This document shows positions 2,368 through 57,873 of a stretch of DNA of 64,000 bases, one piece after another. A model generated the notes under the pieces. That model was not told where the DNA came from, did no database searches, and saw nothing but the letters and a program-made list of their open reading frames with translations. Numbering within the stretch: position 1 is the stretch's first letter; every line of letters starts with the position of its first letter. The stretch is from Thermoplasmatales archaeon SW_10_69_26 (lineage in GTDB: Archaea; Thermoplasmatota; SW-10-69-26). The DNA lies in the NCBI GenBank assembly GCA_003009755.1, contig PXUB01000030.1, positions 36,638 to 100,637 of the forward strand, given 5' to 3'. The translations under genes and the position numbers were made by a program.

Positions 2368-2419
2368 GGCGGCATCAACGGGTTGTGGCGCGAGGTCGAG
2401 GCCTTCGCCGTCGGAGGTC

Positions 2420-2455
2420 AGGCGTCGAGACCCCATAGAAAGACGGAGAGTCGAA
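2420..2455 (+). repeat. Partial relative of the 100-base structured element
   Basis: This stretch, in the gap after the site-2 protease, resembles the 3' part of the elements at 25635-25732 and 57774-57873: AGGCGTCGAG, then a CCCC block, then GAAAGA-type purines ending in GTCGA. About three quarters of positions match the copy near 57.8 kb by eye. The 5' half and its pairing partner are not recognisable, so this is at best a degenerate or truncated copy. Confidence 0.35.
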
Positions 2456-25500: not shown

Positions 25501-26050
25501 GCCGTCGGCAACCGGACGCCCCGTCAAGAGGTTACCGGAGCTTCGACGTGCCCGTCGACGGCGACCGCGCCGACACGGGCCCGGCGACGGTAGCTCTGCG
25601 CGAGGATTCAACCGCGCCTAAGATCGGTAACACTGGGGCCTAGGCCGCTGGCGAGGGGGGTTTCTTTCTTCGCGACCGTTTTTCTTTGTCCCCCTCGCCA
25701 GGCGAGAAGGCCCCGTAGAAAGAAAGAGGGTCGAAGAGAGGAAGAACGAGCGGACGAGGGGGCGAGGATCCGATGAAGAGGTGTTGCCGAGGTGTTGCCG
25801 AACCCACACACGCCCGGCCTCGTCCGCTTCACGCCCAACGTCCCCGCGGGCCCATATCAATCGTCTCGTGAAGCCGTATTCGCGTCGTCGAACAGGCGTT
25901 GGTCGGGCCTGTCAGGCGATGTGGCGGGTCGCCTGCGGGTCGGCGGCACGCGTACCCGACGGCTGCCCCGTCGAGGCGGACAGAGGGAGCTCGCGGGCGG
26001 GGCCGGCTCCCTCAGCGCGTGGGTCCGACGGACTGACGGGTCCCGTGAAA
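25501..26050 (+). other. Gene-free stretch between acetyltransferase and egtB
   Basis: No convincing gene on either strand. It holds the ~100-base structured element (25635-25732) and an exact 11-base tandem duplication (AGGTGTTGCCG at 25779-25789 and 25790-25800). The remainder up to the egtB promoter shows nothing recognisable. Confidence 0.55.
25635..25732 (+). ncRNA. Structured element, copy A (candidate RNA or DNA hairpin element)
   Basis: Outer stem: GGGGCCT (25635-25641) with AGGCCCC (25708-25714). Inner stem: 12 perfect pairs (25648-25659 with 25690-25701). The 30-base pyrimidine-rich loop contains CGCGACCGTTT. An alternative stem pairs GACC (25674-25677) plus TTTCTTT (25681-25687) with AAAGAAA (25719-25725) plus GGTC (25729-25732), skipping one G-G mismatch; it cannot form together with the inner stem except as a pseudoknot. 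Copy B at 57774-57873 has the same plan with compensated base changes. No protein is encoded. It lies between divergent genes. Whether it is transcribed is unknown. Confidence 0.6.
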
Positions 26051-26088: not shown

Positions 26089-27432
26089 ATGACAGGCCCG
26101 GGGGTGCGGATGCCCGACGCGGGGGACGAGCCGGCGTTGCGGAAGACGATCCGGCAGCGGCTCGCCGACACGCGATCGCGGACGCTGGCGTTCCTGGACG
26201 CGATGCAGGACGAGCACCTCCACGGGCAACCCGAGCCCACGATGGGGGTCCCTGCCTGGGACGTCGGCCACATCGGCTGCTTCGAGCACCGCTGGCTCGT
26301 CGACGAGCTCGGCGGCGAGGAGGTCGAGCCCGAGCTGCTGGCGCTGTTCGATCCCATCGAGCATCCCCGCAGCGAGCGTGGCGGGATCGAGATCGGCTCC
26401 CGGGAGGAACTGTTGGGCTTCCTGGCGGACGTGCGCTCGGCCAGCCTCGCCAGGCTGGAGGAGACACAGCTCGACGGGAGCCAGCGGCTGACCCGCGACG
26501 GGTTCGTGCACGACATGGTCGTCCGCCACGAGGACCAGCACCGCGAGACGGTGCTGGCGACCCTCCAGATGTTCGGCGGATCCGACACCGAGCCCTACGA
26601 GCTGCCCGACCCACGCGAGCTGCCCGAGGCCTCGCGGGACGTCGACGGCATGGTCGAGGTGCCCGAGACGACGTTCACGCTGGGCGCCCAGCCCCAGGTG
26701 GGCACCTACGATGCCGAGTGGCCCGTCCAGGAGGTCGACCTCGACGCCTTCGCGATCGATCGCGCCCCGGTGACGAACGCCGAGTTCCTCGCCTTCGTCG
26801 AGGACGGCGGTTACGACGATCCCGAGCACTGGAGCGAGGATGGCTGGATGATCCGGGAAGCCCTCGACCGGGAGCACCCCAAGTACTGGACGCACACCGG
26901 CGAGGGTTGGCGCGTGCGCCGCTACGACCGGACCCAACCCCTCCCACCCGAGGAACCCGTCGTGCACGTCAGCTACTACGAGGCCGAGGCCTACGCGAAC
27001 TGGGCCGGCAAGCGTCTGCCCACGGAGGCCGAGTGGGAGGCAGCCGCCGGCGTCGACCCCGACACCGGCACCAAGCACCGGTTCCCGTGGGGCGAGGAGG
27101 CCTGGACGGCCGGCAAGGCCAACCTCGGGCAGCGCTCGGGCCGCCCGGCGCCGGTCGGCGCCTATCCCGAGGGGGTCTCCCCGGCCGGCTGCCACCAGAT
27201 GGTCGGCGACGTCTGGGAGTGGACCTCGACCGAGTTCACCGGCTACCCCGGGTTCGAGGCGTTCCCCTACCCCGAGTACGCCGCCGAGCACGTAGACCAC
27301 GGGTTCCAAGTGTTGCGCGGCGGCTCGTGGGCTACGATGCCGTCCTGCGCGCACGTCACCTTCCGCAACTGGCACCAGCCGGACCACCAGCAGATCTTCG
27401 CCGGCTTCCGCTGCGCGAGGGACCTCGCGTGA
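26089..27432 (+). CDS. egtB: Ergothioneine biosynthesis sulfoxide synthase EgtB
   Basis: 447 residues. EgtB is a non-haem iron enzyme joining a thiol donor (gamma-glutamylcysteine or cysteine) to trimethylhistidine. The N-terminal DinB-like domain supplies the iron ligands: His61 in DVGHIGCFEH and the H147-x3-H151-x-E153 motif (RHEDQHRET). The C-terminal formylglycine-generating-enzyme-like domain spans about 195-445 (AYANWAGKRLPTEAEWE, FPWGEEA, VGDVWEWTSTEF, VLRGGSW, FRNWHQP...GFRCAR). The ATG is supported by a TATA box at 26060. It overlaps egtD by four bases (GTGA). The pathway is common in actinobacteria, cyanobacteria and fungi and uncommon in archaea, suggesting transfer. Confidence 0.93.
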   Translation: MTGPGVRMPDAGDEPALRKTIRQRLADTRSRTLAFLDAMQDEHLHGQPEPTMGVPAWDVGHIGCFEHRWLVDELGGEEVEPELLALFDPIEHPRSERGGIEIGSREELLGFLADVRSASLARLEETQLDGSQRLTRDGFVHDMVVRHEDQHRETVLATLQMFGGSDTEPYELPDPRELPEASRDVDGMVEVPETTFTLGAQPQVGTYDAEWPVQEVDLDAFAIDRAPVTNAEFLAFVEDGGYDDPEHWSEDGWMIREALDREHPKYWTHTGEGWRVRRYDRTQPLPPEEPVVHVSYYEAEAYANWAGKRLPTEAEWEAAAGVDPDTGTKHRFPWGEEAWTAGKANLGQRSGRPAPVGAYPEGVSPAGCHQMVGDVWEWTSTEFTGYPGFEAFPYPEYAAEHVDHGFQVLRGGSWATMPSCAHVTFRNWHQPDHQQIFAGFRCARDLA

Positions 27433-57545: not shown

Positions 57546-57773
57546 GGCGCCCCAGATCGTGAAACCCCGTCAACGAGGTCCTGTGGACGCTGGCGAGCCC
57601 GTCGGCCGCCAACCGTCGGCTTGGGGCCTCCGGAGATGCAGGCGGCTGGGTCGGCGCCTCCGGCTCCCGCCGACTCCTGCTTCTGGACGGTTCGAGCCGG
57701 CCCGTTCGCCGTTGCCTGTCAAGCGGAGATCGCCCTGCGCGAAGGTCCAACCACGTCCAAGACCAGGGCCATC
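57546..57773 (+). other. Gene-free stretch before structured element B
   Basis: About 230 bases with no convincing frame on either strand. A T-arm-like GGTTCGAGCC near 57690 is not part of a cloverleaf. Nothing else recognisable. Confidence 0.5.
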
Positions 57774-57873
57774 GGGGCCTGGGTCACTGCCGACCCCCGT
57801 TTCCTCTTTCGCGACCGTTTCTCTTTTCCGGGGGTCGGCAGGCGTCGAGGCCCCGTTGAAAAGAGAAAGGGTC
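57774..57873 (+). ncRNA. Structured element, copy B (candidate RNA or DNA hairpin element)
   Basis: Outer stem: GGGGCCT (57774-57780) with AGGCCCC (57848-57854). Inner stem: 13 perfect pairs (57787-57799 with 57829-57841). The 29-base loop contains CGCGACCGTTT. The alternative stem pairs GACC (57813-57816) and TTTCTCTTTTC (57818-57828) with GAAAAGAGAAA (57858-57868) and GGTC (57870-57873), with the same single G-G mismatch as copy A. Compared with copy A the inner stem carries six G/C swaps, each compensated on the other arm. The 3' end is 11 bases before the gcvT TATA box. Confidence 0.6.

Follow-up and report, generated by a model that had tools for sequence, protein, structure and literature searches.

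The genome of Thermoplasmatales archaeon SW_10_69_26 contains a dispersed element whose structure is under constraint and includes a covarying pseudoknot. The window (the whole stretch of 64,000 nucleotides analysed here) holds two copies, A and B, which the initial annotation took for a two-copy element. DNA and covariance-model searches of the genome from which the window comes (2.82 Mb in 49 contigs, 95% complete) place them in a non-coding family of ~27 loci, plus remnants. Judging from sequence, we give even odds to a non-autonomous dispersed element, specific to this lineage, whose RNA would have its 3′ end protected by a triple helix.

The coordinates first given for copies A and B were correct, as was the description of what they have in common: the outer stem GGGGCCT/AGGCCCC, the loop core CGCGACCGTTT and a purine tail. 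The inner stem, put at 12 to 13 pairs, has 12 in both copies, with a sequence that differs between A and B. The structure is nevertheless larger than that annotation described, as the hairpin is preceded by a conserved 5′ domain of ~50–75 nt. The element therefore reads, in order, 5′ domain (CGTTGCCCGTCAGGCGGAGATAGCCCTGCGCGAAGATCCAACAGCGCCCAAGATCA...), outer stem, inner stem (~12 pairs), loop (pyrimidine tract 1, a short core and pyrimidine tract 2) and, after the outer stem, the purine tail. Its length ranges from ~150 to 360 nt; its left boundary is not sharp, and the start of the 5′ domain is taken from the alignment to model R1. The features in the window are:

25584..25633, + strand, copy A, conserved 5′ domain (start per model R1 alignment)
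25635..25641, + strand, copy A, outer stem 5′ strand GGGGCCT
25648..25659, + strand, copy A, inner stem 5′ strand CTGGCGAGGGGG
25661..25670, + strand, copy A, pyrimidine tract 1 TTTCTTTCTT, predicted Hoogsteen strand
25674..25687, + strand, copy A, pseudoknot 5′ strand GACCGTTTTTCTTT, partner of the tail
25690..25701, + strand, copy A, inner stem 3′ strand CCCCCTCGCCAG
25708..25714, + strand, copy A, outer stem 3′ strand AGGCCCC
25719..25732, + strand, copy A, purine tail AAAGAAAGAGGGTC, pseudoknot 3′ strand and 3′ end of the element
57723..57772, + strand, copy B, conserved 5′ domain (start per model R1 alignment)
57774..57780, + strand, copy B, outer stem 5′ strand GGGGCCT
57787..57798, + strand, copy B, inner stem 5′ strand CTGCCGACCCCC
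57800..57809, + strand, copy B, pyrimidine tract 1 TTTCCTCTTT, predicted Hoogsteen strand
57813..57829, + strand, copy B, pseudoknot 5′ strand GACCGTTTCTCTTTTCC
57830..57841, + strand, copy B, inner stem 3′ strand GGGGGTCGGCAG
57848..57854, + strand, copy B, outer stem 3′ strand AGGCCCC
57858..57873, + strand, copy B, purine tail GAAAAGAGAAAGGGTC, 3′ end of the element
2405..2455, + strand, degenerate 3′ remnant of the element (nhmmer E 0.002)

The last of these had been proposed as a degenerate relative at 2420–2455. It is confirmed as a remnant with the wider extent listed, and more relatives exist genome-wide. Several copies lie near contig ends, as is usual for repeats. The next gene downstream of copy A (window positions 26089–27432) encodes an EgtB-like protein with DinB_2 and FGE-sulfatase domains.

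The covariance-model search that the initial annotation had proposed was productive in the element's own genome; it returned no credible copy in relatives, neither in 6 other genomes of the class nor among 194 genomes sampled from the phylum. Weak hits in relatives turned out on inspection to be coding sequence or unconvincing. No credible copy was obtained from plasmids and phages. A pattern scan gave 0 matches on viral contigs and, across 84,980 GTDB genomes, seven scattered bacterial matches that we judged to be chance. Rfam contained no covariance-model match, in line with the earlier remark that no named archaeal element of this form was known. We conclude that the family is most likely lineage-specific.

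The nested outer and inner stems form the RNA fold of both A and B. Their folding energies (z between −0.6 and −2.3) are unexceptional for a GC-rich genome; energy alone therefore says little, and the evidence is covariation. Structure statistics were calculated over 19 aligned copies, with 20,000 permutations of the arms among copies. The inner stem scored 29.0 with its own arms versus 19.4 ± 1.5 when permuted, a value reached in 0 of 20,000 permutations; because the copies share descent, the permutation p values here and below are optimistic and serve as guides rather than exact probabilities. Six inner-stem positions had been reported at which G and C are swapped with a compensating change in the partner arm, a pattern read as selection for pairing. 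Across the 19 copies the swaps fall in columns 3, 4, 8, 9, 10 and 11, where G-C and C-G are both present and each orientation is common. The case for a functional RNA depended on further copies covarying, as these do, and selection for pairing is upheld. G·U outnumbers A·C in both stems, which weakly favours the sense strand as the functional one, although a similar fold is open to the complementary strand.

The purine tail pairs with pyrimidine tract 2 of the loop, forming an H-type pseudoknot that the initial annotation missed. The loop/tail score was 23.6 versus 19.2 ± 0.9 for permuted arms, and 0 of 20,000 permutations reached it (19 copies). A slide control gave 211 of 276 Watson-Crick cells when the helix was in register and 52–111 when it was slid, and a shift of a single base was enough to break the match. 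Pairing extends to bases other than T (GACC/GGTC, GAAGAT/ATCTTC, GCAG/CTGC) and shows covariation from copy to copy. At pair position 3, different copies have C-G, G-C or A-T, and a G·G mismatch is conserved at position 4 or 5.

Tract 1 is predicted to lie in the major groove of the pseudoknot helix, where it would form U·A-U and C+·G-C triples. Only 57 of 20,000 permutations gave as good a parallel (Hoogsteen) match between tract 1 and the tail. Tract 2, used as a control in the same parallel test, was not above chance (2,221 of 20,000). A simpler comparison of T-run and A-run lengths gave p = 0.026, and the predicted Hoogsteen strand is lost in several old copies (L077, L082, L136). Statistical support for this putative strand is moderate, and the fold is probably a bipartite triple helix like that of ENE+A or of the telomerase pseudoknot. 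Helices of this type protect the ends of some viral and human RNAs.

Telomerase RNA contains an H-type pseudoknot in which the U-rich loop 1 crosses the major groove of stem 2. The element shares the H-type pseudoknot and, by prediction, the U-rich loop strand in the major groove; it differs in having no template, in being dispersed and multi-copy, and in lacking an associated reverse transcriptase (RVT_1 is absent from this 95% complete genome). The first ENE to be described was that of KSHV PAN RNA; others followed in RNAs from a range of viruses and eukaryotes, and in plants they are strongly associated with transposons (PMC12501189). Like ENE+A (KSHV PAN, MALAT1, and plant and fungal transposon ENEs such as Evade), the element has two U-rich tracts flanked by stem within a stem-loop and an A-rich 3′ tract, though here interrupted by C/G. 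Tract 2 pairs antiparallel with the A-rich tail, as covariation and the slide control indicate, and tract 1 is predicted to run parallel as the Hoogsteen strand. Differences from ENE+A are the archaeal host, the conserved 5′ domain, a Watson-Crick helix 3–6 pairs longer than the A-tract, the conserved G·G mismatch and the lack of demonstrated sequence homology.

Length variants preserve the fold around the tracts. Extra perfect hairpins are placed exactly between tract 1 and the core in medium and long forms (L071, L092, L076; L081, L084, L074); these inserts are self-folding and sit at the apex. The longest forms (L080, L081, L084, L074) have some further hairpins between the outer and inner stems. 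An extra 5′ domain or hairpin occurs in tandem upstream of the full element at L083, L090 and L074. At the last locus, two reverse-strand copies ~3.8 kb apart (L074a and L074b) have in common a block of ~250 nt, ~97% identical as estimated by eye, that begins shortly upstream of the outer stem and includes 15 nt of flank beyond the tail; outside it, their 5′ domains and surroundings are dissimilar. A near-identical block in dissimilar surroundings suggests that one site can acquire the structured module from another by copying, and the block itself may represent module copying or gene conversion.

Placement relative to genes is unusually exact. In 11 copies the 3′ end of the element lies no more than 1 nt from the stop codon of an opposite-strand gene. 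The abutted genes encode cyclophilin, RtcB, archease, NMD3, an aminoacyl-tRNA-editing protein, ribosomal S27ae, an Lhr-like helicase, PheS and three others; NMD3, S27ae and PheS are of archaeal type and, with archease, mark the host as an archaeon. Pfam models of RtcB and archease extend to the last residue of the encoded proteins, and the RtcB of a same-family relative (73% identical) ends at the same residue, followed by unrelated DNA without the element. These insertions therefore sit exactly at native stops, and gene truncation by insertion was rejected for RtcB and archease. A resemblance to pairing between the last tail bases and the flank (CTTC...GAAG) looked suggestive and was not significant by hand count. 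Copy B ends 42 nt upstream of the probable gcvT start (GTG 57916); a glycine or one-carbon riboswitch was rejected, since other copies flank unrelated genes and many are antisense to a gene end.

A mobile-element origin, alongside constraint on RNA structure, is likely because the element is a dispersed repeat. A purely DNA-level, MITE-like repeat, in which the hairpin serves transposition and the RNA has no function, appears unlikely to us. Its dispersal, lineage specificity and partial and tandem copies fit such a repeat, as does the near-exact gene-end placement. TTC (Phe) occupies codon −3 in 8 of the 11 abutted genes and in 11 of 138 nearby genes, six of these 11 being themselves element-adjacent, which can be read as a site preference; L080, with identical spacing and no evident gene, also points to a preference at the DNA level. 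Like the MITE-like RUP, BOX and RU intergenic repeats, the element is short, non-coding, dispersed, hairpin-rich and located at gene edges. Unlike them, it abuts stop codons exactly and has a covarying pseudoknot, and its ends, compared by eye, have no terminal inverted repeats. Pseudoknot/triplex covariation and the G·U bias fit RNA better, and no candidate transposase was found among the families searched: searches of the genome (95% complete) turned up no Y1 transposase, no reverse transcriptase and, above cut-off, no TnpB/Cas12 RuvC-zinc-ribbon domain. The concern that the copies were simply the ends of a known MITE or IS family is thus not borne out. An IS, IS1595-like by eye from its transposase and with ends GGGCGATTGAG, does occur at ATTTTTCTTT in two or three copies (L078 and L085, at the ends of contigs C17 and C36, and L115, at C10:264), but it is inserted into them, apparently with a preference for the T-tract of the element.

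Improbable, too, is a portable bidirectional terminator, in which T-rich tracts on both strands (the loop tracts on the sense strand, the tail complement on the antisense) with the hairpin between them would end genes from either side, pairing being secondary. Many copies do sit between convergent genes, with a T-tract immediately 3′ of the adjacent stops, and T-tracts at ≤40 nt from a stop are found mostly at element-adjacent genes and are rare elsewhere in this GC-rich genome. However, loop/tail pairing takes in non-T bases and covaries copy by copy, and the CGCGACC-type copies (A, B, C, L076, L087) occupy divergent promoter regions, which have no need of a terminator, and face gene starts such as that of gcvT. 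A guide-RNA-like element of omega-RNA or Cas12 type, its pseudoknot/triplex directly preceding a ~15-nt flank-derived guide for an RNA-guided nuclease, is very hard to credit: the topology resembles that of TnpB omega-RNA and Cas12 scaffolds, where pseudoknot and triple helix (predicted in the element) lie just upstream of the 3′ guide, 16 nt long in omega-RNA (PMC10097598), and the L074a/L074b block takes in 15 nt of 3′ flank, but the genome is without TnpB, Cas12 or Y1 transposase at the scope given above and some 27 solo copies stand without any nuclease.

For the non-autonomous element with a triplex-protected RNA 3′ end, the following mechanism can be proposed. Constraint on the sequence maintains a fold made up of the conserved 5′ domain, the two stems and the H-type pseudoknot, and tract 1 is predicted to enter the major groove of the tail/tract 2 helix and form the triplex. 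In the sense RNA, this triplex would sequester the 3′ end and guard it against 3′-5′ decay, and it may also attract a factor involved in processing or mobilisation. On the opposite strand, the tail complement (TTTTTCTTT), right after the stop, could act as a T-rich archaeal terminator for the host gene, in which case insertions at stop codons would be tolerated or even favoured. More tentatively, and with some doubt, the family may be a selfish or domesticated ENE-like RNA whose U·A-U/C·G-C triplex caps its own 3′ end and which has been installed precisely at the native stops of core genes for RNA processing and translation (RtcB, archease, NMD3, S27ae, PheS) as a 3′ stability/termination module.

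Within the portion of the literature covered by our search, ENE-type 3′ triple helices were reported for eukaryotes and viruses only and no archaeal ENE was found, so an archaeal triple helix of this kind does not seem to have been described there. The exact placement at native stops is a separate puzzle, bearing on insertion or 3′-end formation, and the ~20 natural variants provide a series for testing the rules of C+·G-C and U·A-U triplexes. In plants, ENE triple helices stabilise transposon RNA. An archaeal case in a dispersed element, backed by covariation, would, if true, suggest that this solution to RNA capping arose independently, perhaps against archaeal 3′-5′ decay.
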